From: Loxodes magnus
Lineage: Eukaryota; Ciliophora; Karyorelictea; Loxodida; Loxodidae
Direction: 5' to 3'
Length of the DNA: 64,000 nt
NCBI GenBank assembly: GCA_946699065.1
Contig: CAMPDV010000361.1
Location: 186,001 to 250,000, forward strand
Made by a program: the position numbers and the translations under genes. Positions 1 to 63,411 of the stretch are shown in pieces (position 1 is the first letter of the stretch; the number at the start of each line of letters is the position of its first letter). The notes below the pieces were generated by a model. That model was given only the letters and a program-made list of their open reading frames with translations, did not search any database and was not told the DNA's origin.

Positions 1-1019
1 ATATTTTATACATCTTTATCTACTACTAAAGTTTAGCCTTCTATTTTAAATGGAAATTAAGTACAGTTTTATCACTTACTTTAGTTTCCTATCTTTAACT
101 TTTCTACTGATTATAAAGCTTGATTATTACTAGTAATTCCTCCAACCACATAAAAATATTTTTAAGCAGCTGCTATTCCAAAACCACCTCTTCCCTCATT
201 TAGATCACTAAGTTTTATTCTATTACCTTCAAAATCAAATTATCAAGTTTCTTTTATTCCTTTCTTTTAATTTATGTTATATCCTCCAATTAAATATAAC
301 TTATTTTAATATTCTATACTTTTACTATTGTCTGGAATTATAATTTAAACTTAGACTTATCGTAATTACTCTGTTTAAATATTAAATAAACTTAATTTTT
401 AAATTTAGTAATTAAAAAAGTGAATATAGTTAGATTATATAAAGTGTTAGGTTAGTTTATGTTAATTAGTCTAAATAATATTTGGTTACTTAGTATTGTG
501 TTATAGTTTGTATCTTATTAGATTGTAAGTTAATTTAGACTTTAGTATTGTAGGTGGTTATGAGTTATATTAGAGTATAGTTGGTTTTAGTGATTAGTAG
601 AATTAGATAATATTTGAGTGTTATTTTTGGTAGATAAATGTTGGTTAATGATTGATGATGATATTAGTTAGTGGTATTATGAGAGTATTACTAATGTTTG
701 ATTATTTGGTTGTAATGGTTTTAGATTTTTCCATAATTTACCTCCTTATCTCTTTTAATTTCTATCTAGCATCTTAAATCTTTTATATGTATTATTAGTT
801 TTAAAATATCATTCTTATTAAATCACTTTCTTAAGGTAAATCATCAAATCTAAAATGGAATCCTTTTTAACAAATAGGACATTACATTATGCCTTATAAT
901 CAGTACTCAGTATTCAAACACAAACCACAGTAAATATGTCCACAAGGTAAGACAGTTGGAAGAGCATTAGTTAAGTTGTAATCTTCTAAGCAGATTAAGC
1001 ATTTTGGTAACGCTTACAT
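1..1019 (-). CDS. RING-Kelch protein, unit 1 (C-terminus beyond the window edge)
   Basis: The start is the ATG complementary to 1017-1019. Residues 1-50 form a C3HC4 RING finger with ligands C7, C10, C26, H28, C31, C34, C47 and C50, and a Trp (codon TGA) at residue 40, where RING fingers often have one. A short charged helix (about 60-95) and an N/Q/T-rich linker (about 96-237) follow. Kelch blades begin near residue 238 with LYLIGGYN and GRGGFG, and again YVVGG. RING proteins of this kind act as E3 ubiquitin ligases and Kelch propellers bind partners, so a substrate-recruiting ligase is the natural inference. The visible frame aligns with unit 2 at a constant offset of 15568, so it has no net frameshift. 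TAA and TAG must be read as Gln and TGA as Trp. Confidence 0.85.
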
Positions 1020-1303
1020 TTTTATTATTATTTAGACTACAAAAGCTATAAAGGCAATTTATAACAGTTACCATCAAAAATTAAGTAAAAATATCAAATA
1101 TTACATTATTACTTTATTTACTTAAATACTACAATATTAGGCTATTATATCAAGTAGTGATCCTATATTCCACATGTCGCCAATCTCGGATCGAGATTAG
1201 TTATTAAATTTACTAAAGGCATGAAAGAGCTTTACAACATATTTTTTATATTATTTTTTAAGAAAAACGTCTCTGTCGCAAAGTCTTTATACTACTAGGA
1301 GGA
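1020..1303. promoter_or_regulatory. divergent intergenic/promoter region, unit 1
   Basis: This gap of about 300 bases separates the minus-strand RING-Kelch start from the plus-strand family A ORF1 and is found in all five units. The first ~50 bases upstream of the RING start are nearly identical between units; the rest diverges. A palindrome AATCTCG-gat-CGAGATT lies at 1182-1198 and is partly kept in the other units (for example gatcgaga). Its position suggests a shared bidirectional promoter. No TATA box can be judged in such AT-rich DNA. Confidence 0.45.
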
Positions 1304-2230
1304 ATGCACTAAAATAAGGGACAGAAATGTTAAAACTAAGTAACCTATCAAAAAAATGTAGGCAATTTAGAACATCAACTCAAACCACAGCTCTGTGCAA
1401 AACTTTTAATGGAAAAAGAAAGGAAATGGCAAATATCATAGAATGATGACGAGATTATGCAGCTCAAAACTGCTAAAAGAGTAGGAGTTACCTGTTTCAA
1501 TAAATTTTTAGAAGAAAATTACTACAAACAAAGACTTAGTCCAGCAGAAAGGCAAGAAAATGAAATCATTCAAGCATTTTTCAGATGTTTGAATTAAGAA
1601 TATGGTAAAAATATTGAGAGTGTGAAAATCCTTCAGGCATGAACAATCATTATATGATTCAAAAATAAGGGAACACTCACTCAATTCTCAAACAATTATC
1701 TTGTAAATGTAGAAATTTTTTAATACCAAAAAAGCAAAGAAACATAGAGGATTCTAAAACATTAAGAACTATCCGATTCATTAAACATTTAACATGTATT
1801 CAAGTTTTAGCCAGGTAGAAACCCATCGATAGCAGTACAGAAAATAGTATGTATAGAGATCGGAACCGTAAAAAGTACAACACGAGCCAATGGAAAAATG
1901 AAAACTTATTTAGAATTGAAGGAGATCAAAGACGCAGAAAATATACTAGATAAGTTAGACGAAAGGTAAAGCACTTACTTGAGTCATCCATCAATTTGAA
2001 ATTGTATGAACTGTAACCAAATGGACATAGTACAAACTGATACTTAAGAAAAAAAGCTATAAAGGAAGTAATTAAAAATGCTAAAGAAGTAAAAAACCAA
2101 GTTGATGCATTCGGAAATCAGAAATAAAACGCCTTACTATAAAGAGAAACTGATAGCGAAGGAAAATAAATCGAAGAAAACTAAAGAAGATTAACCTTCA
2201 AATGAAATACCACTTTTATTTCTAGCAAAA
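1304..2230 (+). pseudogene. family A retrotransposon ORF1, unit 1
   Basis: The sequence is homologous to ORF1 of units 2-5: a short helix rich in Leu, Lys and Glu, then blocks such as VGVTxFNKFLEENYY and LSPAEMQENEI, then a basic region. ORF1 proteins of non-LTR retrotransposons bind the element RNA. The frame changes several times relative to unit 2, and the good frame switches near 1620-1700 and again near 1850, so it is probably dead. A 36 bp segment present in units 2 and 4 is absent here (site at 1981-1990). The start near 1304 follows AGGAGGA, as in unit 2. Confidence 0.6.
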
Positions 2231-2623
2231 GCAACAAATTTAAACCATATTAAAATTACTTTAAAGGTGGTCGACTTTAATAGATACTTAGCTACAAATT
2301 AAATAAATAAAATTGAGACAAAACGATCAATGTTATAAAAAGCAGAAAGTAAAATAGGAAATACGCCAAAAAATCTGAAACAACTAGAAAGCAGCGACAG
2401 GAAGAAGTATACATAAACACAGCGCTGTCTCGAAAAAAAGAAAAATATATATAATGGTAAGGAAGATAATATCGTGTAAAAAAATTGAAGACATAAGTAC
2501 AGGAAAAATAATAAGCATTAGAACGATTTATTTTCACGCTATTAAAGAAGAGGAAGCTAAAAATGCAGGGTAGGAGGATCAAGAAAAATAGGAAGTACAA
2601 GGAAATACTAATATAAATTAATT

Positions 2624-2690: not shown

Positions 2691-2713
2691 ATTAAACAAA
2701 TAAATAAATAAAT

Positions 2714-3647: not shown

Positions 3648-4436
3648 AGAATCCATTTTAAAAATGAATACATAATAAAATAGAAAGAATTAAACAAAGG
3701 CACAGCAAATGTCAGAGGAATAAAATCAAGCAAGGAAGAATTAAACAAGTTTATGTGTAAAGGAGCATAAAAATTATGGCAGATTAAGAAATATTTGTGG
3801 ATCAAACTGATGAAATACCTTATATATACGGATTCAGAGCAATAATAAAATTGAGCACAAAACACTACAAAGGAGTAGCATTTTATATAAAAGACGGAAT
3901 TACCCGCAGAACTAAAGTGTTGAATATAACGGATCTTAATCAAGTAGAATTATTTTAGAGAGGAAGATTAATAGGTTTAAAACTTGATGATTGGCTAGCA
4001 TTGATAAACGTATTCAACACTACAAAATCCGACTCTGATTAACTAATACGCTTTTATGAAAGTTTTATAATAATACAAAATAGCAGCATGCAGCAAAGGA
4101 TTATAATTTTAATATTAGGGGGTTTAATGAGCTTATTCGCCAATTTTTACCGTATAAGCAGTATAATGCAGGCTAATACTTATTTAACTTGATGAAAGAT
4201 TTTCTTAAAAATGTAAAGATCCAATTCAAGACACAAACTTCATCACAACATAAGGGAAAGAAAAATTCAAAATAGAATATTTCTTAACGGATCAATATAT
4301 CACGACTAACATTATCAGCACAAAATTCTATCAATAGAGACAAATAGGAGATCATTAGCCAGTCAAAATAAAGATAAAAATGGTGGAAGAATATAGAAAA
4401 AGCCCATAAATTAAAAGGATAATGAATTTACCTATA

Positions 4437-11490: not shown

Positions 11491-11743
11491 AGGAATATTT
11501 AAGTTATCTTAGTGGAACCCTAAGAAAAGTATTTATTGTCTATTAGCTACATTGTTTTAGTATTTATCTTATTAAATTGACTATTCATTTTATTTACTTC
11601 AGTTGAAGCGTTTCCAAATTCTAGATTTATGAAAGTGTAAACATCTGCCTATGCTTTTTTTATAAGATCACAGCTTCTTTATTGCTAGATAAGAGTCGCT
11701 AAGAGTTTAAATTAGCGATTTTGAATTAGTTTCCATATTGATA

Positions 11744-13870
11744 GTTATCAGCTTATAGTTTTAAAGTTTATTTTAAGTTTTGTAAATTTTGCTTATTAGC
11801 TAGTATTTCTTCAATACTATCATTATAATGGATTTAATTAATTATTATATTTAATTGATTAGTTATAGAATTAAAGTCACTTTTCTTTACTCAAAAGTAT
11901 TTTCTCAATAACTTATAAAGTAAGAGTTAATCAAATAGGCTAATATAGCTAAAATATTTTCTTAAGTTTAAAGAAATTATTCATGTTCTTACCTTTTAAT
12001 TAGATATTAAATAGTAAGATAATTACAGTTTAATGGTGAAAACATATCTGTTTGCTATTCAAATTACCTTTATTTATTTAGTCCATGAAAATGTTAAATT
12101 TTTCAATCCATTATCTCCTTTTTGTTATCTTATGTTAGTATACAATATTTTCTTTATCTCATTAAATTTATTTTTGATACTTTTTTAATTCATTTCTTAA
12201 ACGTTTCTTTTAAGTATTAGCAACATATCCACAACTTAATTTAACTTCTTATTTTTCCTATATCATTATCTACCTTAACCAGCTTCAAAGAATATGTAGC
12301 TCATTGTGAAGCTTTTCCAATATTTTTCCAATTTTCAGTTTTTAGTAATATAACCTTCTTACTTATGATCTATATCTGCTATTTTAACAATTAATAGATA
12401 TCATCTAGTATTCTTTCCTAAACAATTCTTATGCTAATTATGCTATTAGTCCCTTAAAAAATAGTCTTAAACTTTCTTTTGTAGTAATCTAGGTTGGATC
12501 TTATGCTGAATTATTGCATTATAGTTTTAATTAATTCTAATAGCTACTATCCTACTGGATTTAGTTTATTTGCTACAAATTATGTATATGTGCATTAAAT
12601 CTCATACTATACTTATAAACTTAAATTGCTTTTAATTAGGCTTTCATAGAAACCGATTCATTATTCCTCAAGTAGGCGCATATACATTAAGTAAGATTCA
12701 TACAAATTACAATCCTTCCAGTATTTCATTTTATTCCATTTACTTCATACTCTCTCCATATCAATTCTTCTTTAATATATAAAGCCACTCCTTTACTAAG
12801 TCTAGTTCCATTATTCCTTTATTTCAAGCATATCTTTAATTCAATCTATAAACACTTCTTGAGTCACCATAATATATCTTTTTCAAGCATTCATTTACAT
12901 AACTCTTCTTTGTTCGACTTTATTCCTCTTATATTATCAGTTCTTATGTTAATTTCAAATATTCACATTTTCTTTATCTTCATTGTTTGATTCTTTAGTA
13001 TCATCAATTTAGCTTAGTCTTTTTCAAAACCAAATTACTCTAATGTTTGTATTTATCTTCAGGTTTTATGTATGCTATCTTTTCTCATATTATTTCTTGT
13101 TTATTATTCAAAGTAATTGCATCAGTTATCAAAATAGCTAGTTACTTATTGAACCTTATTTTTCAAAAGGTTCAATTCCATTTTTTCTCTCATGGTGTTA
13201 AACTTTGGCTTTTCCATATATCTAAGTAGCAGAAATCATTTTATCTCAGCATTTATTCAGTTAAATGATCTTTTATTATTCTATCAATTGTTGCCTATCT
13301 CGCGTATAATTATTTAAGCAATTTTATACTTTAGGATCCAAATTTTTGCTTGCTACTCTTCTTTATAATTTCTTTAACATTTCTTTAGTTTTTCTATTTT
13401 TATTTATATATCTTTTATTTCAGTTTGTTATTTCTTCTTACATAATCCGCCACTTTTTTTGATATTCCAATATAACTGATTATTAGCTTGATTTATTTTT
13501 AATCTTCTATATTACTTAGTACTGTATCTAATTTTTTGACAGCTTACATATCATCATATTGCCAATTAATTCAACTTTAACCGTAAATTTTTTCTTACAG
13601 TCAAGTAGGAATATTTTCTGGATAAGTGGTTCGAATATTTTTAGGTACATAGTTGTTCTACCATTAAGTCCTATTGTTCCTTTTATTGTAAGCAAGATTG
13701 TTTTTTTATATTTCTGCAGGTTTTTAGCTATTTTTCTGTTTTAGTTAAGCAGTTATCTAAACCTAAAGAGTATTTTATTAGTTCATCATATTTTCCTTGC
13801 TTTTTTCTCCATTCTCAAAACTTGATTTGGATGTTACTGAGTAGTTCTTACTGGTTCATCATATTAATCA
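11744..13870 (-). pseudogene. family C non-LTR retrotransposon, unit 2 (ORF1 remnant and endonuclease)
   Basis: Read leftwards, an ORF1-like segment (about 13830-13400, TIKGTIGLNGRTTMYLKIF) resembles family A ORF1 (TVKGTTWANGKMKNYL). The endonuclease starts near 12957 (IRTDNIRGIKSNKEEL, LSKGVALYIKEEL), clearly related to the family A endonuclease. The frame is disturbed downstream and I find no clear reverse transcriptase motifs. The left edge at 11744 (GTTATCAGCTTATAG) is shared exactly with unit 3 at 29774, so it is a true boundary of the duplicated unit. The element is head-to-head with the unit's family A copy. Confidence 0.65.
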
Positions 13871-15192: not shown

Positions 15193-16587
15193 TCAGTTAT
15201 GACTTCTAATACTTCTATAACTCAATTTTTCTAAATCAATCCTCATTATCGAAACTCTTGGCTATTCTATAGCAAAAACATATCCATAGTTTTTTCTTAT
15301 TTTCATCTCCGTTAAAGCTTCAACATCTTTAAAAATTTAACTTTATTATCATTATTCTTTGCTTCTTTTATATATTCTTCTTGAATATTCATTCGTAAAT
15401 CCATTTTTCATACCTCCAAATATGACAAAAGGTTCTAAAGAAACTATAGGCCTAAGAACAGCTTCAGGAAGATTCAAATTTTACTTACTTCATCTTTCAT
15501 TCTATATGTTATATTTTCATATATCTTTTAAAGTCTATCCTTTCTAATTAAAGCCTCCAAAAGAATAAATATTTTATTCATCTTTATCTACTACTAAAGT
15601 TAAATCTGCTATTTTGAATGGAAATTAATAACAGTTTTATCATTTACTTTAGTTTCCAATCCTTAACTTTACTACTGATTATAAAGATTGATTATTATTA
15701 GTACCTCCTCCAACCACATAAAGATATTTTTAAGCTGCAGCTATTCCAAAGGCACCTCTTCCCTCATTTAGATCACTAAGTTTTATTCCATTACCTTCAT
15801 AATCGAACTACCAAATTTCTTTTATTCCTTTCTTTTAATTTCTGTTATATCCTCCAATTAAATATAACTTATTTTCATATTCTATACTTTTACTAAGTTC
15901 TGGAATTATAATTTAAACTTAGACTTATCGTAATTACTCTGTTTAAATATTAAATAAACTTAATCTTTAAATTTTTCAATTAAAAAAGTGAATATAGTTA
16001 GATTATATAAAGTGCTAGGTTAGTTTATGTTAATTAGTCTAAATAATATTTGGTTACTTAGTATTGTGTTATAGTTTGTATCTTATTAGATTGTAAGTTA
16101 ATTTAGAGTTTAGTATTGTAGGTGGTTATGAGTTATATTAGAGTATAGTTGGTTTTAGTGATTAGTAGAATTAGATAATATTTGAGTGTTATTTTTGGTA
16201 GATAAATGTTGGTTAATGATTGATGATGATATTAGTTAGTGGTATTATGAGAGTATTACTAATGTTTGATTATTTGGTTGTAATGGTTTTAGATTTTTCC
16301 ATAATTTACCTCCTTATCTCTTTTAATTTCTATCTAGCATCTTAAATCTTTTATATGTATTATTAGTTTTAAAATATCATTCTTATTAAATCACTTTCTT
16401 AAGGTAAATCATCAAATCTAAAATGGAATCCTTTTTAACAAATAGGACATTACATTATGCCTTATAATCAGTACTGAGTATTCAAGCATACACCACAGTA
16501 AATATGTCCACAAGGTAAGACAGTTGGAAGAGCATTAGTTAAGTTGTAATCTTCTAAGCAGATTAAGCATTTTGGTAACGCTTACAT
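15193..16587 (-). CDS. RING-Kelch protein, unit 2 (full length, 464 aa)
   Basis: The start is the ATG complementary to 16585-16587 and the proposed stop is the TGA complementary to 15193-15195. The layout is RING C3HC4 (7-50), charged helix, N/Q/T-rich linker (about 96-237), then Kelch blades. The last blades are clear: NIYSFGGFNQKGQTLKDIW, then YNIQNERW, then VIFGGMKNGFTNEYSRR and EQW. All six Trp I place in the gene are TGA, each at a site where the family has Trp. The length of 1395 nt is identical in units 3 and 5, and downstream spacing is not a multiple of three. The likely role is a ubiquitin E3 ligase with a Kelch substrate-binding half. It is divergent from family A ORF1 across a ~300 bp gap. 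Confidence 0.85.
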
Positions 16588-16885
16588 TTTTATTATTATT
16601 TAGACTACAAAAGCTATAAAGGTAATTTATAACAGTTACCATCAAAAATTAAGTAAAAATATCAACTAATACATTATTACTTTATTTATCATTATTTATT
16701 TAAAAGTACAATATTAAGCTATTATATCAAGTAGCAATACTATATTCCACATGCCGCCAATCTCGGATCGAAATTAGTTATTAAATTTAATAAAGATATG
16801 AAAGAGTTTTACAATTTAATCAGATCTTTGATAATATTTTTAAGAAAAACGTCTCTGTCGCAAAATCTTTAAACTACTAGGAGGA
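16588..16885. promoter_or_regulatory. divergent intergenic/promoter region, unit 2
   Basis: It corresponds to 1020-1303. The palindrome seen in unit 1 reads AATCTCGGATCGAAATT here, one arm imperfect. The 50 bases nearest the RING start are almost unchanged between units. Confidence 0.4.
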
Positions 16886-17815
16886 ATGAACAAAAACAAA
16901 GTGAAAGAAATGTTAAAACTAAGTAGCCTATCAAAAAAGGTAAGTAGATTAGAAAATCAATTCAACCACAACTCTGTGCAAATCATTATAATTGAAGAAG
17001 AAAAGAATGAGCAAATACCATAAAATGAGGAAGAGAATACACAGCTCAAAACTGCTAAAAGAGTAGGAGTTACTTATTTCAATAAATTTTTAGAAGAAAA
17101 TTACTACAACCAAAGACTCAGTCCAGCAGAAATGCAAGAAAATGAAATAATTAAAGCTTTTCTCAGATATCTGAATTAAAAATATGGTAAAAATATTTAG
17201 AGTGTGAAAATCCTTCAGACACTAATAATTATTATAGAATTCAAAAATAAGGAAACACTCACACAATTCGGAAATAATTAAACATAGAAGATTAGAAATG
17301 ATGTAATACCAACAGAGCAAAGAAATAAAGAGAAATTCTACAACATTAAGAACTACCCGATTCACTGAACATTTAACATGTATTCAAGTTTAAGCCAGGT
17401 AGAAACCCATCTATAGCAGTACAGAAAAATAGTATATATACAGAGATCGGAACCGTAAAAGGTACAACGTGAGCCAATGGGAAAATGAAAAATTATTTAG
17501 AATTGAAGGAGATCAAAGATGCAGAAAGTATACTAGATAAGTTAGACGAAAGGTAAAGCATTTACTTGAGTCAGTCTGGAAATCCCATACACGTATCGTT
17601 GTATCGCCAACCATCAATTTTAAAATATTTAAACTGCAACAAATAAGGATATAGCAAAAATTAATACTTAATAAAAAAGCTATAAAGGAAGTAATTAAAA
17701 ATGCTAAAGAAGTAAAAACCAAGTTGATGCATTCAGAAATCAGGAATAAAATGCCTTACTATAAAGAGAAGCAGATAGTGAAGGAAAAGAAAGTGAAGAA
17801 AACTGAAGAAGATTA
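16886..17815 (+). pseudogene. family A ORF1, unit 2
   Basis: The start ATG at 16886 follows AGGAGGA and leads in frame into a second ATG and MLKLSSLSKKVSRLENQF, a coiled-coil opening. The frame stays good to about 17370 (VGVTYFNKFLEENYY, AFLRYLNQKYGKN, KFYNIKNYPIHW). A frame change follows, then TVKGTTWANGKMKNYLELKE (about 17450-17500). A C-terminal basic part (EVIKNAKEV, YYKEKQIVKEKKVKK) needs yet another frame. At 17574-17610 there is a patch absent from units 1 and 3 that reads antisense as a WD40 blade end. ORF1 proteins chaperone retrotransposon RNA; this copy looks decayed. Confidence 0.65.
17574..17610 (-). repeat. antisense WD40 fragment inserted in ORF1, unit 2
   Basis: Units 1 and 3 lack these ~36 bases (sites at 1981-1990 and 35601-35610); units 2 and 4 have them. 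Read on the minus strand they give GDTTIRVWDFQ, matching the blade end EDTTINIWNFQ of the WD40 gene at 49015-49050. By hand I count about 25 of 32 bases identical, including GATACAACGAT and ATTTCCAGAC. Confidence 0.6.
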
Positions 17816-17952
17816 ACCTTCAAATAAAATACCACTTTTTATTTCTATCTAAAACAACAAGTTTAAGCCATATTAAAGTTACTTTAAAAGCGATATACTT
17901 TAATAGATATTTAACAACAAAATTAAATAACAAAACTGAGACGAAACTATCA

Positions 17953-20900
17953 ATGTCACAAAAAACAGAAAGTAAAATAGGAAATATGGCAAAAAAACTG
18001 AAACAACTAGAAAGCAGTGACAGGAAGGAAGTATACATAAATACAATGCTGTCTCAAAAAAGATAGAAAAAAATATAATGGCAAGGATGATAATATCGAG
18101 TAAAAAATATTGAAGACATAAGTACAGGAAAAATAATAAACTTTTAAAAAGATTTTAATTTCACGATATTAAAGAAGAGAAAACTAAAATGGAGGATAGA
18201 AAAATAGGAAGTACAAGGAAAAACTAATATAATAAAATAGTCAGAATTAAACATAGGCGCAGCAAATGTCAGATGAATAAAATAAACAAGAATTAAACAA
18301 GTTTATGTGTGAAAAGAAGATAGAAATTATGGCGATTTAAGAAATATTTGCGAATCAAACTGCTGAAATACCTTATATATACGAAATCAGAGCAATAATA
18401 AAATTGAGCACTAAACACTGCAAAGGAGTAGCATTTTTATAAAAGATGGAATTTACGAGCAGAACCAAAGTGTTGGATATAGCGGATATCAATCAAGCAG
18501 ATCTATTTTAGTAGAAGATTAATAGGCTTAACACTTGATGATCATGATCGGCTGGTATAAAAAAACTTATATAATACTACAACATCTGACTCTGATTAAC
18601 TAATATCCATTTATGAAAGTTAAAAATAATACATAATAAAAGAAACGGATTATAAATTTTAATATTAGGGGATTTAAATGCGCATATTCTCCAATTTTAC
18701 CGTATGAACAGAATAATGCAGACTAATACTTATTAAATTGATGAAAAATTATCTTTTAGAATGTAAAGATTCAAATCAATATCCAACCATCATCACAACA
18801 TAAGGGAAAGGAAAATTCAAAATAGAATACTTCTTAATAAATCAATACATTACGCCTAGCATTATCAGCACAAAATTCTATCAATAGAGACAAATAGGAG
18901 ATCATTAGCCAGACAAAATAAAAATAAAAATTTCGAAAGAATTTCGAAAAACCCTAAAATTAAAAGGATAAACTTTCAAAAATTTAAGCAATAAAAGGTT
19001 AAAGAGAAATTCAAAGAATGATTCGAGAAAATAGATCTTAGCGAATTCGAAAATTTCGATAGCGAAGCATACTATGAAAAATGATTTAATTAAATCCAAC
19101 AAGAAGCGACTAAAGCGATATGTGGCTTTGTAACAAATTAAATGAGAAAATAATAATATACAGCAGAAATAATAAAACTAAGAAAATATTTCTAATAGCA
19201 AGCGAAATAAGTAAAATAACTAATTAGATAAGAATGCTAAGAAATTGATAATTATATTAAAATGCGATAAGAAGCAAGGAGAAAATTTAGATTGCATCAA
19301 AAAAGGATAGGAAAAATAAATTAAATATTTTTTAGATGAAATTAATTAAGGAAGCTTACACAACACTTGAAAAGAAATATAAAAATAATTAAAGTAGAGA
19401 AAATGATGCATAATGGATATTAATAAACGAAAATGATATACAGTAATAAACGAAAAGGATATGTAGAATTTTAAAGAAAGCTGAAGGAAGCTCAATAAAA
19501 TTGGTAGCAACAAATTACAATACTCATAAAGGAACACATAAACAATATAAGTTTAAAAGAAGATTTAGTGTGCTATATAAAAAAACTCTACGAATTAAAA
19601 GCTGTAGGACTTGATGGAATATAAATAGAAACAATAAGAGCTGGAGGAGATAAGCTTGTTAACCTAACCGCAATATTAACATAAAAAATAATCCAATCTG
19701 GAGCTATGCCAAGTAAAATAAAAGGATCTTTTATTTTACTACTTCATAAAAAAGGTAGAATGGAAGGCCTTGTGAATTATAAGCTGATTTCACTTTTAAT
19801 TTATATAGTAAAAATCATAGATCTTTGATTATTTGGATAAATAAACTCATAATCGAGCAGGTGTGATGATGAATTATAATATGGCTTAAAAAAAGGCAAA
19901 TCATGCTCATAGCAAATCTTCAATCTAAGAACTGCACAAGAATGACTTCAGCAAAATAATCAAGAAAAAGCAGTAATATTTATTTGATATTAAAAAGCAT
20001 TTGACTCAGTAATAAGAGAAGATATATGAGAAACACTAAATGAAATTGAAATATCTGAGCAAATAAGCAAACTTATTGCTGAATTGTACAGAGAAGAAAC
20101 AAAGATAAAAAATGATTTAAATAATAAATAAATGAGCTTTATAGAGCACGTAGCACCTCAATGGTGCGCAGCTCTTTAATAAAGATTTTTAAAGTAAAAA
20201 AAATTCTTTCTTAAATCTTTCCACAGTGCTAGCATTCCCTTGTGAAGTTGTCTTCTATAGGACCGCGATCAGAATGCTACCTAAGAGACCTTAGTTTCTG
20301 GCATCTTTCATCATTAATGCTACTTGATGCCTCTTCGACCTTGATTTCTCTTCTCTTGGCCGGTTCTTCACCTATGGGAAACTTCCTGGTACCAGAGTTT
20401 AAGTCAGTTTCAGTTGGAGGATAGTTCCTCCATATTTATTTATATTTAATATAAGAACATATTTAAACGGGTAAAGGAATTAAATAAGGAAGCACCTGTT
20501 TCCAAAGGTTATTTAATATTATAATAAATAAATTTATGAACTAACTAAGATAAAATAAAGTAGGAATAACCATAAGCATAAAATTAGAATAATATATAGA
20601 GGAAAGATTTATGGGAGCATCAGCATACGCAGATGATATTGTAATGATGGTAAGTCCAGACTACAAGAGATGATTGAAATACTACAATAGTGATCTTAAT
20701 AATATAATATAAAAGTTGCAGATAAGACTAAGTGAATGCTATGAAATGGAAAATAATACAAAATTTATAATCAATATATATAAATGAAATGGAATAGAAA
20801 GAGTGAATTAATATAAATATTTAGAACACTGATTTCGATAAAGTATTTCTTTTGAAAAATTTAAAATCAAGATTAATGGAATATCAAAAAGCGTAAGCAT

Positions 20901-25705: not shown

Positions 25706-26762
25706 TAATCTTTATTTATTTATTTTAATTATAAATATTTTTAAAATTATTAAAATGGAATAAACTTTTACTTTAGAGGTTATTTATTATTTGAAACAAT
25801 AACAACAAATATCCTTTCTTAATACAAAAAATAAAAATTTTATTTTCTCTTCAATAAATATTACTTTCACATTAGTTTATTTTTCTAGCCTAAGTATTTA
25901 ATTTTATAATTATAATTATTTTGTTCAAACTAATTAATTATAAATACAATTTAATTTATTCTTAAATATTTGTTACTCTAAATAAAATTTTATTTTATAT
26001 ACTAGTTTAATTTTAACTACTCTTTGCTATGAAGAAATATTTCTTTTACTTATTTAAAATAAAATAATTTATTAGTTCTAATAAGTAAATCTTCTATAAT
26101 TATGATGTATTGTAGATAATCTAAAATTTTTCTATTTTCAAAGATAAAATTATTTTAATATTTGATTTGTTAAAATAATTTACTATGATATAACGAAAGA
26201 AATTAAAATGATAACTAGAGTTAAGATTTAATTAATGTAGCATTTATAGAACCTAATTACAAATTCTAATTAGCTAAAGAAGTTAAAAATGTATTTACTT
26301 TTAATTAATTAATAAATCTAATAAACTTCCAATTATTTAGTGCTTTAATAACTGAAAATATATTATATTGATGTTAATATTATAACTTAGTAATTTTAAA
26401 TAAGTGAATTTAATATATTAATAATTAGGTAAATAAGTATTTAAATATTATGTATATTAAATTATAAACTAAATTAATTAAAATTATATTCTTAAACTTT
26501 AAATTACTTAAATGCTAATAATCTAAAGCTTTTATAAACTATAACGTATTAATATAATAATTAAAATGTAAATGAAGAAACTATGTTAATGCTGCTTATA
26601 TCTATTTAATTTAACAAGTGCAGTAAAAGAAAATAACTTAGTTATAATAAATAATTAACTAATAGTTAACACTTAAAGATTTTGATTGTTTAATATAGAA
26701 ACAGAATAAATTAAAGAAGTTAAAATAAATGTATTAATTCCAAAATTTAGTAGAAGCGTTAA
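25706..26762. other. AT-rich stretch, possible decayed 5' part of a Kelch gene
   Basis: No clear domain. As the 3' neighbour is a plus-strand Kelch remnant, the last few hundred bases may be its decayed upstream part, but I cannot align them. Confidence 0.35.
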
Positions 26763-27225
26763 TTTCCTTTTGAAATAGCACTTTAGAAATTAGTAGTAGA
26801 TAAAAGAGAAGAAAATATATATTCATTTAAAGGAGTAAATTAAACAAAAGTTATAAATGATATATGAAAGTATAATATATAGAATGATACATGAAACTAA
26901 TATTATTTCAATCTTCTTGAAGTGTTTTACGTTAGTGTTATTAGAACCTCTTATTATGGTAGGAAAAATAAAAAATTGAATTAAAATAGAATATTCCAGA
27001 AAAATATATAAAAGAAGAATGAATAATGATAATAAATAAGTACTTAAACATAATTCTTATAATTTATCAGGATTTAGAACTCGAGATAGATTTGCTTATT
27101 CTTTTATTCTAGATCTATCAAGCCTTTTAGTGTTGAGAATAGATGTAGGAAATTTGAACTATAAGAATATTATGGAGAGGGAAGACCAAATATTTAAGTG
27201 CTTTATGATTAAAAAGTATTAAAAA
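26763..27225 (+). pseudogene. diverged Kelch gene fragment
   Basis: From 26763 the plus strand reads FPFEIALQKLVVDKREENIY, then GVNQTKVINDIWKYNIQNDT, close to the Kelch part of the repeated RING-Kelch gene (FPFKI..., LVVDKDEQNIY, KDIWKYNIQNERW). Both Trp are TGA. Downstream a match to IYKRSKEQWQQ survives (near 27020-27040) with the intervening blade degraded (the FGG turn is lost). No RING is visible upstream. It is in the opposite orientation to the five units and outside any unit, so it is an older, decayed dispersed copy. Confidence 0.65.
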
Positions 27226-37430: not shown

Positions 37431-37444
37431 TCAATAATGTTTAA

Positions 37445-38770
37445 TTTAAATATATAACATTAAAAGAATATCTAGAGTAAAATCTTGCATCTATTAGCTT
37501 GATAGTACATTTATACTGGTAGAGGATATTTAGGTTATGTTTAGCGCTGAATATGAAGTATTAATTAGACTATATTTATTAGTTAAAGGTATAGTCTTAT
37601 GAAGACTAAGTTGTATACTTAGATTTAAGTAGTCTATACTTGCATTTAAAATTAGAGGTAAATAATTTAGTATGTTTTTAAGTTTGGAAGATATATTGAA
37701 ATAAGTATTTGATAAAATCTAAGGAGTATTAAGGTATAGCTTAAGCATATAGGCAAATTAAAGTTAGAAAATATAGTAATAAAAGTTGATAAAGCTAAGT
37801 ATAATATATACTATCTCAATTATATATTTTAAGGTATATAAATAAGCTAGTGATATCTATTAGGTAAATAATAAAGCTCAGATTTAGTATGAAGCAAATT
37901 AAACCTAATAAATTTCAGTAAGTAATAGAACGTTAAGTTTAGAAAAGAAAATATAGATTAACTTCAAGCTAAATAGGAGTAAGATATTATTAATGAAGTC
38001 AACTCTTAATTCACTTACTAACAAAATTTGAATCAGTTTAGTTGATTTTAGTCTAAAAGTGTGTTTTGACATGCTTAGTAAGAAAGTTTGACTAGAATCT
38101 GTAGGAAATAGAAGCTGGTAAATAACTTTGATGAGCAAAATAAAGTAATGTTATTATATAAAAAGCTTAGTTAACTTGAATAAATAGCAGAATATTTTAA
38201 GGTTATTCATGTTCTAAGAGATTTTATAGGGATTTGAAGATAAAGAGTATATCAATAGATAAATTATATCCCTAAACTTGAGGGAATAAAATAAATTTAT
38301 TAAAAGAACTCTAAAAATGAACGAGAGTATAACTATCTAGCTTCTTTTCATGTAAGAAGTCAGATATCTAATGGTTAGCTTGTATTATTAAGAAGTCAAG
38401 GAAAGAAGTTTGATAAAGAGGAAATTCTTAAGAAATATTAAAAAAGATTAATGATAATTAGAATCATCCTGAGTTGAATAAAAAATGTAAGATCAAGAAA
38501 TAATTTGTCTTCAGAATAAATTATCTAGACAATATAGAGATATAAGATTTGAAAGATAAATAAAGAACTTTATTTACTTAAGAAAGAAGAGTAGATGATT
38601 TTAGTTTGAATCAAGAACGTATATATATAGTATATTATAGAGATTATCTTAAGTTATACTTCTAATGCTTTTAGTCATTATAGAAAATTAAATTAATGCA
38701 TAAATACGAGTACTAAGAAACGCTATACATTCTAATTAATTTGATATATGTTTATAAGAGTTTTATTATA
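37445..38770 (+). CDS. unknown protein, probably frameshifted
   Basis: Two good frames follow one another. About 37900-38260 reads, among others, NFDEQNKVMLLYKKLSQLEQ and HVLRDFIGIWRQRVYQQ. From about 38270 the sequence NKINLLKELQKWTRVQLSSF, CKKSDIQWLACIIKKSRKEV, RINYLDNIEIQDLKDKQRTL and RVDDFSLNQERIYIVYYRDY is in another frame. Helical, charged and well composed; no domain is recognised. It resembles in style the 4.8-6.3 kb coiled-coil gene. The upstream part (37445-37900) is uncertain. Confidence 0.4.
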
Positions 38771-44245: not shown

Positions 44246-45286
44246 ACAGTTACTTTTTGGAACTTATTTTGTTCAATGGGTTTTTGACAATAGCATTTTT
44301 TTCTTCTATAATGCTAAACTTTGCTTTTTTCCATAAATCTAAGGTAATTAAGTCATTTAATCTCAGTGCTTATTCATTTAAATTATCTTTTTTTATTCTA
44401 TCAGTTACTATCTATCTCAGGCGCAATTTAAATAATTATTTAAGCAATTTTTATTCTTTAGAATTAAATATTTTGCTACCAATCTTTATAGTTTCTTATC
44501 CTTTATTTAGCATTTCTTTAGGTATCTTATTTATATTTATGCATCTTTTATTTCAATGTGATATTTCTTGTTACATATTTTACTACTTTTTTATTATTTT
44601 TCAACCCAATTTATTATTAATTTTATTTGCCTTTTTATCTTCTTCATAATATCGTATCTAATTTTTTGATAATTTATTTATGCATCATCAAATTGCCAAA
44701 TTACTTAATTTTACACATATGCAAAACTTTTGTTTGATTTTTGTGAATGCTTTTAGCTACTTTTCTGTTGGATCTAAGCTTTTGTTTATACCAAAGTGAA
44801 TTAGGTAGTTATTATTATTGTCGTATTAATTTATATTTCTCTTCTTGTTAAAATATAAAAGTTTAATATTATTATTTTTTATGTTAGATAATTTATTAAT
44901 TTATTCTTAATCTAATAAAACAGTTAGAATAAGTCCAGTTGCTATTATTCGTACTTAATCTATATATTATCCAAATTCTCTCTAACAGTACTCAAGAGTT
45001 CCATTAATGCAAACGTTATTTTATTTTTGCTTTGTTTGAATTGTAACGTTTAAAATTTCTCTCTATAATCGATAGATTATTCCTATTTCTTAGACGAAAT
45101 TTTCTATTTTATTCTCTTTATTTTCTTCAAAAAATTGCTCATTAAAATATTTTATTTCTGTTAATTTTATTAGTTCATCTATTTTTCTTACTTTTTCTCA
45201 CCATTAAACATCCTTTCTAAAAACTTTATTTAGATGTAACTGAGTATAGTTTAATGTCTATCATATTAATCTCGAAAAATTATTAT
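44246..45286 (-). pseudogene. family C retrotransposon ORF1 remnant, unit 4
   Basis: It is homologous to about 13150-13880 of unit 2 (CTATCAGTT, ATTTAAGCAATTT and other shared words) but more diverged. The endonuclease part is missing to the left. At 45287 the sequence passes straight into the RING-Kelch 3' flank with no zinc-knuckle cassette, so this is the empty site. Confidence 0.55.
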
Positions 45287-45828: not shown

Positions 45829-47224
45829 TCAGTTATGACTTCTAATACTTCTATAACTCAATTTTTCTAAATCAATCCTCATTATTGAAACTCTTGGCTA
45901 TTCTATAGCAAAAACATATCCATAGTTATTTCTTATTTTCATCTCCGTTAAAGTTGCAATATCTTTAAAAATTTAACTTTATTGCCATTATTCTTTGCTT
46001 CTTTTATATATTCTTCTTGAATATTCATTCGTAAATGCATTTTTCATACCTCCAAATATGACAAGAGGCTCTAAACAAACTATGGGCCTTGTAACAGCTT
46101 CAGGAAGACTCAAATTTTACTTACTCCATCTATCATTCTATATGTTATATTTTCATATATCTTTTAAAGTTTATCCTTTCTAATTTATCCCTCCAAAAGA
46201 ATAAATATTTTATTCATCTTTATCTACTACTAAAGTTAAATCTGCTATTTTAAATGGAAATTAAGTAACAGTTTTATCATTTACTTTAGTTTTCCATCTT
46301 TAACTTTTCTACTGATTATATGAGTTTATTATTATCAGTACCTCCTCCAATAACATAAAGATATTTTTAAGCAGCTGCTATTCCAAAGCCACCTCTTCCC
46401 TCATTTAGATCGCTAAGTTTTATGATATTGCCTTCATAATCGAACTACCAAGTTTCTTTTATTCCTTTCTTTTAATTTTAGTAATATCCTCCAATTAAAT
46501 ATAACTTATTTCTATATTCTATACTTTTACTATTTTATGGAATTGTAATTTAAACTTAGACTTATCGTAATTACTCTGTTTAAATATTAAATAAACTTAA
46601 TTTTTAAATTAATCAATTAAAAAAGTGAATATAGTTAGATTATATAAAGTGCTGGGTTAGTTTATGTTAATTAGTCTAAATAATATTTGGTTACTTAGTA
46701 TTGTGTTATAGTTTTTATCTTATTAGATTGTAAGTTAATTTAGACTTTAGTATTGTAGGTGGTTATGAGTTATATTAGAGTATAGTTGGTTTTAGTGATT
46801 AGTAGAATTAGATAATATTTGAGTGTTATTTTTGGTAGATAAATGTTGGTTAATGATTGATGATGATATTAGTTAGTGGTATTATGAGAGTATTACTAAT
46901 GTTTGATTATTTGGTTGTAATGGTTTTAGATTTTTCCATAATTTACCTCCTTATCTCTTTTAATTTCTATCTAGCATCTTAAATCTTTTATATGTATTAT
47001 TAGTTTTAAAATATCATTCTTATTAAATCACTTTCTTAAGGTAAATCATCAAATCTAAAATGGAATCCTTTTTAACAAATAGGACATTACATTATGCCTT
47101 ATAATCAGTACTCAGTATTCAAACACAAACCACAGTAAATATGTCCACAAGGTAAGACAGTTGGAAGAGCATTAGTTAAGTTGTAATCTTCTAAGCAGAT
47201 TAAGCATTTTGGTAACGCTTACAT
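45829..47224 (-). pseudogene. RING-Kelch gene, unit 4, with a one-base insertion
   Basis: Start complementary to 47222-47224. The distance to the TGA complementary to 45829-45831 is 1396, one base more than in units 2, 3 and 5. Comparing landmarks places the extra base near 46264 (AATTAAGTAACAG against AATTAATAACAG in unit 2), inside the Kelch part. The RING, linker and first blades (about residues 1-320) are intact, and the last blades are shifted out of frame. It is either a recently damaged copy or a sequencing error. Confidence 0.75.
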
Positions 47225-47476
47225 TTTTATTATTATTTAGACTACAAAAGCTATAAAAGGTAATTTATAACAGTTACCATCAAAAATACACTAGTATATC
47301 AAATTATCTATTATTACATTATTACTTTATTTATTTAAAAGTATAATATTAGGCTATTATATCAAGTAGCATATCACATTCCACATGCCACCGAACTTGG
47401 ATCGAGACTGCTATTAAATTTAATAAATGCATGAAAGAGCTTTACAATATATCTTTGATATTATTTTTTAAGAAAA
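47225..47476. promoter_or_regulatory. divergent intergenic/promoter region, unit 4
   Basis: It corresponds to 1020-1303. The core motif reads GATCGAGA with the left arm lost. Confidence 0.35.
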
Positions 47477-48450
47477 ATGTCTCCGTCGAAAAATATTATA
47501 ACTACTAGGAGGAAGGCACAAGAAAAAGTGATAGAAATCTTAAAACTAAGCAACCTATCAAAAAAGGAGGTAATTTATAACATCATATCAGATTTCAGCT
47601 TTGTGCAAATCATTATTATGGAAAAAGAAAAGAAAATAGCAAATTACCATAAAATAATTAGATTATGCAGCTCAAAACTGCTAAAAGAATAGGAGTTACC
47701 TGTTTCAATCAATTTTTAGAAGAAAATTACTACAACCAAAGACTCAGTCCAGCTGAAATGAAAGAAAATTAAATTTTTCAAGCATTTCTCAGATATCTGA
47801 ATTAAGAATATGGTAAAAATATTTAGAGTGTGAAATTCCTTCAGACAGGAATTATTATTATATGATTCAAAAATAAGGAAACACTCATGCAATCCGGAAA
47901 TAATTACACTTGAAAAAGTAGAAATTTTTTAATACCAACAGAGCAAAGAAATATAGGGGAATTCTACAACATTAAGAAATACCCGATTCATTGAACATTT
48001 AACATGTATTCAAGTTTTAGCCAGGAGAAACCCATCTAAAGCAATACGGAAAAATAGTATGTACAGAGATTGGAACCGTAAAAGATACAAAGGGAACCAA
48101 TGAAAAAATGAAAAATTATTTAGAATTGAAGAAGATCAAAGACGCAGAAAATATACCAGATAAGTTAGACGAAAGGTAAAGCACTTACTTGAGTCAGTCT
48201 GGAAATCCCATACACGTATCGTTGTATCGCTAACCATCAATTTGAAAATGTATGAGTTGTAACCAAAAAGGGCTCAGCTCAAATTAATGCTTAAGAAAAA
48301 AAGTTATAAAGGAAACAATTAGAAATGCTAAGGAAGTAAAAACTTGGCTGATGTATTCAGAAATCAGGAATAAACAGGAATAAAATGCCTTACTATAAAG
48401 AGAAACAGATAGCAAAAGAAAAGAAAGTGAAGAAAACTGAAGAACATAAA
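47477..48450 (+). pseudogene. family A ORF1, unit 4, 3' truncated
   Basis: An ATG at 47477 is in frame through RRKAQEKVIEILKLSNLSKK; the ATG used in unit 2 is AGG here. Homologous blocks continue (RIGVTCFNQFLEENYYNQR). It carries the WD40-like patch (48197-48233), as unit 2 does. Similarity to ORF1 ends near 48450 and a WD40 gene follows. Confidence 0.55.
48197..48233 (-). repeat. antisense WD40 fragment inserted in ORF1, unit 4
   Basis: It has the same sequence and position as 17574-17610, differing at one or two bases (CGCTAA for CGCCAA). Only 785 bases downstream lies a complete WD40 blade with the matching motif in the sense direction. Confidence 0.6.
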
Positions 48451-48517
48451 CTTCAAATAGATCAATTTTATTGTAACCTATAATTATGAAAATGGAAAAC
48501 AAAATACAGATTACTAA

Positions 48518-59770: not shown

Positions 59771-60179
59771 TACGTTAGTTAAATTTGCTCCATTAAAATT
59801 ACAATTTATTAGACATGTGTTTCTTAAATTGCCACCATACATGTTGGTATTTTATAAATTGAAATTTTACAGCAATATATCAATAAATAAGCACCTTTAA
59901 TTCTTATTGCTTCTAAACTTTTATATAAACGCATATTTTAAATTCTTCATAATAGTTATGGTATTCGCTGAGGCTTGATCTTCTTCATTAAAAGTTTTAG
60001 GTAATTTAATGACTTTTTTATTTTATAAGTTTTAACTTGAATTCTGCTTGAACTGGTTTAAAATTTTTTTATTATACCATAATTAGATTTATTCAAATAA
60101 TTTTTTTTACTTTGGACCTGATAAAACTTGTTATAAATTTATATCCTTAAATATTTTTTCAAATTTTCAAATTTTCAAA
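59771..60179. other. AT-rich spacer
   Basis: No recognisable feature; it may hold the 5' flank of the WD40 gene. Confidence 0.4.
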
Positions 60180-61472
60180 TTTTCTTAATCTTCATTGTTT
60201 GATTCTTCCTATTTAGTATCAACTATTTATTTAGGATTAATTTGTCTTTTTCAAAGTCGAATTACTTTAATTTTTGTATTTATGTTCAAGTTCTATGTAT
60301 ACTATCTTTTCTGATATTATTTTTCTATTTATTATTGAAATTGATTGCATCTATTATTTTTGGAAGCAAACTAGTTACTTGTTGGAATTTATTTTGCTCA
60401 ATGGGTTTTAACAATGGCACCTTTTCCTCATGGTATTAAACTTTAGCTTTTCCATAGATTTAAGGTAGCTTAAATGATTTTTTTAAAGAATTTATTAAGT
60501 TAAATGATCTTTTATTATTTTATCAATTTTTACCTATCTCAGGTGTAATTTAAATAATTAGTTAAGCAATCTTTATGCTTTAGGATCCAAATTTTTGCTT
60601 ACTACTCCTCTTTATAATTTCTTTAGTTTTTCTATTTTTATTTATATATCTTTTATTTCAGTGTGTTATTTCTTGTTACATATTCTACCACTTTTTTATG
60701 TTCAAGCATAATTGATTATTAACTTTATTTCTTTTTGTCTTCTTCATTACTTAGTACTGTATCTAATTTTTCGAAAGTTTTCGCATCATTTATTGCCAAT
60801 TGATTTAATTTTACTCATAAATTTTTTCCTTTCAGTTAAGTAGGAATATTTTCTGGATAAGTGGCTTCTGATAATTCTAGGTAAATAGTTGTTCTACCAT
60901 CAAGTTATGTTGTTTCTTTTACTGAATGTAAAACTATTTGTTTTATATTTCCGAAGACTTTTAACTTTTTTTATTTTGTAACTAAACTTTTGAAGTAGCG
61001 AATTAAGTAGTTATTATTTTTTAATATTAATTAATATTTCTCTTCTCTAAAATATTAAAGATTAATATTATAATTTTCTATGCTAGAGAATTTATCAAAT
61101 TATATTAATCAGATAAACAAATAGAATAAATTAAATTCGTATTTTTCGTACTTAATCTATATGTTATCCAAATTCTACCTATCAGTACTGAAGAGTTCCA
61201 TTAATGTGGCACATTATTTTATTATGCCTGATTTATAAATTTTTAAAAAATCTCTTTATATAAAATTGAGATAGATTATTCTTATTCTTAGATGAAGTTT
61301 TCTACTTTATTTTTTCAAAATTACTTATTTTATAAAATTTTATTTTCTGCTAATTTTATTAGTTCGACATATTTTCAAAGCTTTTTTCACTCTTAGATGT
61401 CACTCCTAAAAACTTGATTTCGATGTTGTTTTAAATTTCCTGGTCTATCATATTAATCTCGAAAAATTATTA
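60180..61472 (-). pseudogene. family C retrotransposon ORF1 remnant, unit 5
   Basis: It is homologous to about 12975-13880 (for example TCTTCATTGTTTGATTCTT and GTAGGAATATTTTCTGGAT are shared). As in unit 4, no zinc-knuckle cassette is present at the junction (61473). The endonuclease part has been lost to the left. Confidence 0.55.
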
Positions 61473-62016
61473 TGCTTGAGTTTTTATCGAAAGTATAGGA
61501 GTTATAATGGTTTTATTTCATTATTGACTATAGAATATACATTTTTAATTATATATAGTAGTTAGTTTAAATAAAATAAAGAAAATAATGTATTTTAGAT
61601 TTGAAGATGTTGAATTGATGATAGTAGTTATACTTAATTAGTATTTAGATATAGGCATTGCTTAATTATTATTTGATTATAATTTTGATTTGATTAGATA
61701 AATAATAGAGTAATCTAAGTAGTACTTATATAATTTGATTATAAGGATGTATTTAATGACAGTTTTTTTGACTATGTTGAATATGTTTTGGTATATTATA
61801 AGCTATATATTTGTATCTGAATAATGATAATATTTGAATAATAGATTTTTAAAGATGTTTAGATAAAATCTTATTCTTCATTTATTTCAGACGCTTTAAA
61901 TATTTTAATAAGTAGTAACAATTTACCTAATTATAGATCTTTGAACTACTTCTTTACATATTAAATTATATTTATTATAAATATTATTAATAATAAATAT
62001 ATTATTATTATGTTTA
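61473..62016. other. 3' flank of the RING-Kelch gene, unit 5
   Basis: It corresponds to 14661-15192, indel-rich and probably untranslated. Confidence 0.45.
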
Positions 62017-63411
62017 TCAGTTATGACTTCTAATACTTCTATAACTCAATTTTTCTAAATCAATCCTCATTATTGAAACTCTTGGCTATTCTACACCAAA
62101 AGCATATCCATAGTTGTTTCTTATTTTCATCTCCGTTAAAGCTGCAATATCTTTAAAAATTTAACTTTATTATCATTATTCTTTGCTTCTTTTATATATT
62201 CTTCTTGAATATTCTTCCATAGATCAATTTTTCAAACCTCCACACATGACAAAAGGCTCTAAACAAACTATAGGCCTAGCAACAGCTTCAGGAAGACTCA
62301 AATTTTACTTACTTCATCTATCATTCTATATGTTATATTTTCATATATCTTGTAAAGTTTATCCTTTCTAATTTCCACCTCCAAAAGAGTAAATTTTTTA
62401 TTCATCTTTATCTACTACTAAAGTTTAGCCTGTTATTTTAAATGGAAATTAAGAGCAGTTTTATCATTTACTTTAGTTTCCTATCTTTAACTTTTCTACT
62501 GATTATAAAGCTTGATTTATATTAGTAAATCCTCCAACCACATAAATATATTTTTAAGCAGCTGCTATTCCAAAGCCACCTCTTCCCTCATTTAGATCAC
62601 TAAGTTTTATGATATTGCCTTCAAAATCAAATTATCAAGTTTCTTTTATTCCTTTCTTTTAATTTAAGTTAATTCCTCCAACTAAATATAACTTATTTTA
62701 ATATTCTATACTTTTACTAAGTTCTGGAATTATAATTTAAACTTAGACTTATCGTAATTACTCTGTTTAAATATTAAATAAACTTAATTTTTAAATTGTT
62801 CAATTAAATAAGTGAATATAGTTAGATTATATAAAGTGTTAGCTTAGTTTATGTTAATTAGTCTAAATAATATTTGGTTACTTAGTATTGTGTTATAGTT
62901 TGTATCTTATTAGATTGTAAGTTAATTTAGACTTTAGTATTGTAGGTGGTTATGAGTTATATTAGAGTATAGTTGGTTTTAGTGATTAGTAGAATTAGAT
63001 AATATTTGAGTGTTATTTTTGGTAGATAAATGTTGGTTAATGATTGATGATGATATTAGTTAGTGGTATTATGAGAGTATTACTAATGTTTGATTATTTG
63101 GTTGTAATGGTTTTAGATTTTTCCATAATTTACCTCCTTATCTCTTTTAATTTCTATCTAGCATCTTAAATCTTTTATATGTATTATTAGTTTTAAAATA
63201 TCATTCTTATTAAATCACTTTCTTAAGGTAAATCATCAAATCTAAAATGGAATCCTTTTTAACAAATAGGACATTACATTATGCCTTATAATCAGTACTC
63301 AGTATTCAAACACAAACCACAGTAAATATGTCCACAAGGTAAGACAGTTGGAAGAGCATTAGTTAAGTTGTAATCTTCTAAGCAGATTAAGCATTTTGGT
63401 AACGCTTACAT
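62017..63411 (-). CDS. RING-Kelch protein, unit 5 (full length, 464 aa)
   Basis: Start complementary to 63409-63411 and TGA complementary to 62017-62019 give 1395 nt, at a constant offset of 46824 from unit 2 at both ends. RING ligands are unchanged. The Kelch part has several substitutions (for example in the last blade near 62215-62245) without indels. Same role and context as unit 2. Confidence 0.85.

Follow-up and report, generated by a model that had tools for sequence, protein, structure and literature searches.

A RING-Kelch gene family of Loxodes magnus with a constant 5' half and a hypervariable predicted binding face

The RING-Kelch genes of the window

We have analysed a 64-kb stretch of the genome of the ciliate Loxodes magnus (C361:186001-250000; hereafter the window), in which self-comparison reveals five related units, each with a gene on the minus strand whose predicted protein joins a RING domain to a putative Kelch propeller (RING-Kelch, RK). 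The main feature of these genes, which a preliminary description of the same DNA missed, is a constant 5' half followed by a hypervariable predicted binding face. Pattern searches were genome-wide, over an assembly of 705,730,643 bases in 7,843 contigs. The published macronuclear assembly of L. magnus is given as 706 Mbp and as using NCBI table 27, with TGA as tryptophan or stop (PMC11441545). The RK genes are open when TAA and TAG are read as glutamine, TGA as tryptophan and the final TGA as stop; with this code a frame that is merely open is no proof of a gene, and we have therefore relied on indels and substitution patterns. The preliminary description was right that the frame is intact in units 2, 3 and 5 (1395 nt each) and in the visible part of unit 1, and that unit 4 has one extra base. 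The genes and their parts, in window positions, are:

1..1019, minus strand: RK unit 1, codons 1-339, truncated by the start of the window; the whole copy (L009) has no frameshift
15193..16587, minus strand: RK unit 2, 464 codons plus TGA, 1395 nt
33228..34622, minus strand: RK unit 3, 464 codons plus TGA, 1395 nt
45829..47224, minus strand: RK unit 4, frameshifted by an additional base (+1) at nt 958
62017..63411, minus strand: RK unit 5, 464 codons plus TGA, 1395 nt
16438..16569, minus strand: RING zinc ligands of unit 2, codons 7-50 (C7, C10, C26, H28, C31, C34, C47, C50)
16048..16627, minus strand: near-invariant tract of unit 2, about -40 to +540
16588..16688, minus strand: RK leader of unit 2, about 100 nt, common to copies in unrelated contexts; the 5' limit of the common piece
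15193..15987, minus strand: Kelch part of unit 2, codon 201 to stop, holding the 23 hypervariable codons

For the comparison between copies, 55 RK matches (from the window, L009-L028 and L029-L058) were reduced to 48 distinct copies, L001-L008 being shorter duplicates of copies in L009-L016 and left unused. One part of the sample was selected by similarity to unit 1 (20 fetched from the best 40 of 1,529 scored candidates) and the other in contig order with an exact RING 27-mer (30 of 1,206 matches), so that divergent copies are under-sampled. Four frameshifted copies were excluded from the final entropy and substitution analyses, which use 44 copies, and were kept in the alignment register for the list of residue entropies. 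The flank alignment comprises 45 copies, with three copies of contig C13 (two of them frameshifted) excluded, and the base composition of the linker was inspected in 17 copies.

In the proteins of units 2, 3 and 5, the Pfam matches above cut-off are to a RING (about residues 6-52) and to Kelch repeats (about 211-420; models Kelch_1, Kelch_4, Kelch_6 and KLHDC2/KLHL20). The same three proteins gave no Pfam match to the B-box that would be expected of a TRIM protein, nor to the BTB domain of a BTB-Kelch protein. Outside the RK genes, a B-box match just below the cut-off (E 9e-5) lies at about 5034-5132 on the plus strand. All eight zinc ligands of the RING (C3HC4) are present in the 48 copies. 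Isoleucine 9 is found in 48 of 48, proline 48 in 47 of 48, and a TGA-coded tryptophan stands at codon 40 in 45 copies and at codon 39 in the three that carry a variant block described below; we take these three positions to be those that face the E2 enzyme. Ubiquitin-ligase activity of the RING is plausible from its sequence. Among solved structures, RNF4 and TRIM25 are some of the closest in sequence to the RING, and Kelch proteins (designed ones, those of Plasmodium and KLHL members) are some of the closest to the propeller. The AlphaFold model of the full protein is poor (mean pLDDT 43). For the Kelch part alone mean pLDDT is 50.5 and pTM 0.54, and Foldseek aligns this model with KLHL12, KLHL3 and Keap1 over about 140 columns at a TM score of 0.4. 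A homology search with the full-length protein gave no match at E 0.001 among 3,937 candidates; the Kelch part retrieved one protein, with 29% identity over 53%, from 256 candidates. Neither search brought up a close relative from outside this genome. In all five units the linker between the two domains (about nt 300-600) contains hardly any G on the RK coding strand. It was considered as an intron and rejected as such, 93% of L. magnus introns being reported at 25 nt or less (PMC11441545). Further stretches almost without C on the plus strand lie in the window at 49387-50546 and 14641-15073.

Constant 5' half and variable Kelch half

Nucleotide diversity among the 45 aligned copies is about 0.14 upstream of the gene and falls to nearly 0 between the ATG and about nt 500 (0 at nt 260-440, with an exception at nt 80-140, where it is 0.043). 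It rises again to about 0.09 across the Kelch part and is 0.06-0.12 past the stop. The longest variant-free run in 44 copies covers 214 nt (nt 255-468). For codons 1-180, pairwise counting over the 44 copies gives a synonymous divergence (dS) of 0.008 and a non-synonymous divergence (dN) of 0.008. Since synonymous sites are nearly fixed as well, protein selection cannot explain the constant half, and gene conversion is the simplest account. Furthermore, L053 and L057 carry a variant block at nt 97-143, with 18 and 19 differences clustered in an otherwise consensus 5' half, which is what gene conversion would leave. This variant RING block, found also in L045 and reading for instance CLSTQWYLQDFEWCPIC in place of CLNTEYWLQGIMQCPIC, constitutes a second RING allele.

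A role at the level of DNA or RNA, as a target of small interfering RNA that silences copies or as a recombination anchor, could also keep the 5' tract invariant, the Kelch half then being diversified by a directed, template-based process. Such a role would suit both the length of the variant-free run, which reaches into the low-complexity, nearly G-free linker, and the near-invariance of synonymous sites. The tract nevertheless contains variant blocks of the kind that plain gene conversion leaves (L053 and L057, nt 97-143), the window holds other C-poor stretches, and the variable codons show by eye no bias towards one base of the sort known from diversity-generating retroelements. We regard this explanation as very improbable.

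The Kelch half differs between copies as much as the flanks do. Codons 201-464 have a dS of 0.119 and a dN of 0.082, and the resulting dN/dS of 0.69 is not the value near 1 that, according to the preliminary description, would speak against selection on RK. This figure is itself a mixture of about 0.45 and 2.7-3.0. Twenty-three codons exceed 1.5 bits of amino-acid entropy, with up to 11 residues at a single codon (204, 205, 230, 231, 249, 279, 289, 295, 297, 301, 325, 327, 328, 346, 350, 378, 379, 396, 399, 423, 440, 442 and 443). Most of them form two patches per blade, about 17 residues apart, one ahead of the strand leading to the GG motif and one right after GG; codons 289 and 325 lie outside. 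As a stand-in for mapping in three dimensions we used the sites at -16, -15, +1, +3 and +6 from the second G, which we take to correspond to the places of the Keap1 ligand residues relative to GG. Over six blades (30 sites) the mean entropy at these Keap1-offset sites is 1.01 against 0.36 bits (p 4e-5), and over the four blades with a clear GG (20 sites) 1.22 against 0.36 bits (p 8e-7); on sliding the set from -14 to +14 the maximum falls at shift 0. Two ligand residues of Keap1, Ser363 and Arg380, likewise stand 17 residues apart, other contacts being Tyr334, Arg336, Asn382, Asn414, Arg415, Phe478, Arg483, Ser508, Ala556, Ser602 and Gly603 (PMC4506958). The dN/dS is 1.88 and 1.60 at the Keap1-offset sites, compared with 0.56 and 0.51 at the other sites. 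For the 20 codons of highest variability, picked in some copies and measured in the others, it reaches 2.71 and 3.02, the remaining codons giving 0.45 and 0.46. Amino-acid numbers per codon are over-dispersed (2.4), while those of synonymous codons are not (0.75).

The Kelch half is also a mosaic among the copies. All four combinations are seen in 952 of the 1,326 pairs formed by 52 two-state sites (four-gamete test), from which a minimum of 37 recombinations (Rm) follows if no site mutated twice. The mean r2 drops from 0.08 to 0.025, distances in the two halves of the Kelch part correlate at just 0.26, and in the two arrays tested (C22 and C35) neighbouring copies are hardly closer in Kelch than copies elsewhere. 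Among 44 copies there are 43 hypervariable haplotypes. A diversity-generating retroelement is unlikely as their source, the variable codons changing at all three positions with no one-base bias by eye.

Copy number, reading frame and flanking remnants

With up to 2 mismatches the RING 27-mer has 662 + 544 = 1,206 matches in the genome, and its reversed control has none. Among the 100 RING places listed, on 15 contigs, 83 of 85 neighbouring pairs have the same orientation and 78 spacings are below 30 kb, the shortest being 6.9 kb; this one-way tandem layout is as in segmental duplication. On the long contigs C2, C13, C22, C24 and C35 the listed RK matches lie within about 205 kb of an end. Linkage to telomeres was considered and rejected: five array-side ends (600 b read from each) have no telomere-like repeat by eye, the listed copies of C132 (703,591 b) are spread between 175 and 675 kb, and the contig ends are explained equally well by repeats that broke the assembly. 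The telomeres of Loxodes are described as not yet known (PMC11441545).

The RK frame is kept to a degree that the neighbouring ORF1-like frame is not. Forty-four of the 48 copies are free of frameshifts over 1395 nt, contrary to the possibility, raised in the preliminary description, that most copies might be frameshifted, and 36 of the 48 additionally end in frame with SHN-TGA. The four frameshifted copies are unit 4 (+1), L030 and L032 (-1, in the same array) and L048 (-2); the remaining indels are of -3 or +9. Across the 45 aligned copies the upstream ORF1-like stretch contains 337 indel cells, 80 of them multiples of three, against 10 in the RK coding sequence, where 8 are multiples of three. 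As a further check, the spacing between the RING 27-mer and an exact 3'-end 30-mer is in register in 46 of 49 cases, including 30 of 30 on contigs outside the 48-copy sample; this check covered zero-mismatch 3' ends on contigs up to C156 (53, of which 49 could be paired with a listed RING match). Within 3 mismatches the 3'-end pattern is present in all 48 sampled copies.

These figures bear on whether RK could be a satellite-like, recently amplified array of no present function, with its diversity produced by mutation and gene conversion. The four broken copies among 48, the 856 3' ends found against 1,206 RING matches and the following decayed relative in the window fit such an array:

26332..27171, plus strand: sixth RK relative, decayed and inverted; Kelch part, split over two frames, best piece 45% protein identity

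Older RK copies, then, do decay. However, the flanks are rich in one-base indels and the coding sequence has almost none, 30 of 30 further copies are in register, and amino-acid variants cluster at predicted loop sites with no over-dispersion of synonymous ones, so that we find a functionless array quite improbable.

Remnants of putative retroelements flank the genes:

16850..19443, plus strand: ORF1-like, then endonuclease-like remnant of unit 2, head-to-head with RK, start approximate; no Pfam match
1270..2616, plus strand: ORF1-like remnant of unit 1, start approximate
3660..4422, plus strand: continuation of the unit 1 remnant past unrelated DNA
34880..37462, plus strand: ORF1-like remnant of unit 3, start approximate
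47470..48463, plus strand: ORF1-like remnant of unit 4, common with unit 2 to -1239
63660..64000, plus strand: ORF1-like remnant of unit 5, cut by the window end
11743..13740, no strand assigned: 'family C' repeat of unit 2, on its 3' side; the C132 unit that lacks ORF1 has it as well (91%)
29612..31775, no strand assigned: 'family C' repeat of unit 3
44248..44719, no strand assigned: 'family C' piece of unit 4, 72-74% to units 2 and 3
60165..60980, no strand assigned: 'family C' piece of unit 5, 79-80% to units 2 and 3

The head-to-head pairing of RK with ORF1 that had been described for all five units is borne out in the window by the same ORF1-like flank, which matches that of unit 2 as far as -2384 in unit 1, as far as -2840 in unit 3, as far as -1239 in unit 4 and, near the window end, as far as -602 in unit 5. 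The second repeat, 'family C', is indeed common to the four visible left sides, although in units 4 and 5 it is only about 72-80% alike. The statement that all retrotransposon genes are dead holds in so far as the ORF1-like frame is broken, with its 337 indel cells in 45 copies. Their retroelement identity is a weaker part of it, since no retroelement domain exceeds the Pfam cut-off in the approximately 26 of 64 kb examined (2.8 kb of them on a single strand), and the assignment thus rests on an endonuclease-like motif, GDLNAH, spotted by eye in the flank of unit 2; one sub-threshold Exo_endo_phos match was obtained in the DNA examined. A 2-kb stretch at about 10250-12301 is 99.9% identical in four other units (L012, L014, L021 and L028) whose RK-bearing stretch is merely 88.7-89.5% alike, and this segment has therefore moved or been converted very recently.

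Outside the window the pairing does not hold throughout. The ORF1-like flank accompanies 45 of the 48 sampled copies, and 40 of the 45 regions upstream of RK contain an ORF1 28-mer with at most 2 mismatches. The three C13 copies (L030-L032) and the one C132 unit read (L067) have no ORF1 upstream; in them RK homology begins only at about -115 or -101, and the C132 unit has the 'family C' repeat on the expected side. A 28-mer at -30 in the leader is present within 1 mismatch in 45 of 45 copies. Given the ORF1-free copies, the smallest common piece is the leader of about 100 nt plus the RK gene, with ORF1 upstream only in some arrays. With up to 3 mismatches the ORF1 28-mer has at least 603 genomic matches, half of the 1,206 of RK, a lower bound because the ORF1 stretch varies more than the RING. 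A comparison by hand, made on the contigs that the RK listing covers, puts 11 of their 12 exact ORF1 matches at 602-624 bp from a listed RING and the twelfth (C156) at the corresponding distance from an RK 3' end; this ORF1 lineage thus occurs beside RK.

The preliminary description had suggested that RK travels with, or regulates, a non-LTR retroelement; as such a cargo or regulator it would spread or persist with the element. The ORF1-like flank of all five window units and of 45 of the 48 sampled copies, together with the similar distance of the exact ORF1 matches from RK, would favour this idea. It is opposed by the mismatch in copy number (1,206 against 603, the mismatch limits differing), by the RK copies without ORF1 (three on C13 and one C132 unit) and by the one-way tandem arrays. 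LINE insertions are usually 5'-truncated; the remnant, unlike these, retains its 5' part, and no reverse transcriptase was recognised in the parts examined. We consider carriage by a retroelement very improbable; the remnants are, as far as sequence comparison indicates, passengers duplicated with some of the arrays. Non-LTR elements described from L. magnus include rnd-1_family-27 and -19 (PMC11441545). Remnants of putative retroelements are present in many RK units, and RK occurs also without them.

A predicted target-recognition repertoire

Taken together, we propose that RK forms a target-recognition repertoire, that is, a recombining family of RING E3 ligases in which the effector is constant and the recognition face diversified, and we put the probability of this whole statement, made from sequence data, at roughly 0.6. 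The protein of 464 residues, encoded in about 1,200 copies, would be a RING E3 ubiquitin ligase in which the Kelch propeller is the likely substrate receptor, as it is in KLHL12, KLHL3 and Keap1. Gene conversion would homogenise the 5' effector half and reshuffle the 3' half, diversifying selection would widen the range of proteins recognised, and each variant would cause one target protein to be ubiquitinated and degraded. The family combines diversifying selection at its predicted binding sites with an effector conserved at the DNA level, as expected of a hypervariable recognition family, and by analogy this make-up, an unchanging effector joined to a receptor that is diversified and reshuffled, is that of immune recognition families. 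The targets would be changing proteins within the cytoplasm of the ciliate; probably they are foreign and come from bacteria, viruses or mobile elements, a point of which we are less sure than of the repertoire itself. The somatic nucleus of Loxodes is reported to form without extensive DNA elimination (PMC11441545), and the RK repertoire should consequently sit in the expressed genome.

Several observations weigh against this proposal. The dN/dS of codons 1-180 is 1.03, on very few changes, and shows no protein-level selection there; the selection on RK suggested in the preliminary description is thus backed by the kept frame (44 of 48 copies and 30 of 30) beside a decaying ORF1-like flank, and not by the RING half. 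At the hypervariable sites dS is 0.26 against 0.09-0.13 elsewhere, two to three times as high, so that multiple hits or local mutation may inflate the picture, and dN/dS comes from pairwise counting that ignores recombination. The Keap1 offsets were fixed after the pattern of variation had been seen, the register of blades 1 and 6, which have no GG, is a matter of judgement, and the maximum found on sliding is not sharp, since the entropy stays at 0.57-0.80 bits at shift -4 and, shift 0 apart, from -3 to +2, with a shoulder of 0.7-0.8 between -2 and +2. Leaving out one blade at a time with exact offsets gave no significant result (p 0.30), perhaps owing to loop lengths that differ by a few residues, and the test of periodicity p 0.067. 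Only blades 2-4 of the Kelch part are modelled with confidence by AlphaFold, and some of the four-gamete combinations may stem from recurrent mutation. Finally, the 3'-end pattern has 856 matches genome-wide against 1,206 for the RING, and up to about 29% of RK copies may accordingly be truncated or diverged at the 3' end.

If the Kelch face is a receptor, it might read polymorphic self proteins instead of foreign ones, in self/non-self or mating-type recognition. Hypervariability, mosaicism and very many copies fit this as well as they fit immunity; more than 1,000 copies in one genome nevertheless probably exceed what an allele system usually needs, and we hold such a function to be unlikely. 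A bolder form of the repertoire, an antigen-receptor-like system in which about 1,000 recombining cassettes, each made up of a constant promoter-effector half and a reshuffled recognition face, are selectively expressed, each cell or lineage degrading different invading proteins and ongoing gene conversion yielding new specificities, seems to us speculative and somewhat more doubtful still.

Comparable systems are known from animals. Fintrims join a RING to a recognition domain. In zebrafish NLR-B30.2 genes, gene conversion is reported to act differently on NACHT and B30.2, with positive selection in the hypervariable surface of B30.2; these and the fish fintrims resemble RK as large clustered families whose effector and recognition domains differ in gene conversion and whose recognition surface is under positive selection (PMC4852459). 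In contrast to them, RK would have a Kelch propeller as its recogniser, and Pfam found no B30.2, NACHT or B-box in the three RK proteins. Its approximately 1,200 copies belong to a single-celled ciliate, while nearly 400 NLRs are given for zebrafish (PMC4852459). Nematode F-box adaptors are likewise expanded ubiquitin-ligase genes with a conserved N-terminal module; dN/dS between paralogues peaks in their C-terminal substrate-targeting part and an innate immune role has been proposed (PMC8665587). They differ from RK as adaptors of a cullin ligase, RK having RING and receptor in one chain, and in that the RK 5' half is nearly identical at synonymous sites. BTB-Kelch proteins (KLHL, Keap1) share with RK its predicted Kelch fold and the place of the predicted ligand loops, but RK has its RING in the same protein and no BTB was found; the N-terminal RING of RK is similar to those of TRIM25 and RNF4, proteins from which RK departs by its Kelch C-terminus and by having no B-box according to Pfam. 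Nothing closer than these systems appeared in the literature searched. That literature, to which preprints and other papers do not belong, did not contain the term 'RING-Kelch', and in it 'Loxodes' stands together with 'kelch' only in a work on Tetrahymena cilia; neither 'kelch' nor 'ubiquitin' occurs in the main text of the L. magnus paper (PMC11441545). The new point is the apparent union of a constant RING half and a hypervariable Kelch receptor inside one gene.

Large diversifying families of E3 receptors are already known from animals and plants. If our proposal is true, L. magnus would add a protist in which RING and hypervariable receptor are joined in one chain, in about 1,200 copies, with one half constant even at synonymous sites. 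This ciliate would then be a model for the rise of recognition repertoires and for the way in which concerted evolution fixes one half of a gene while the other diversifies, and RK offers a direct test of protein-level innate immunity in ciliates.

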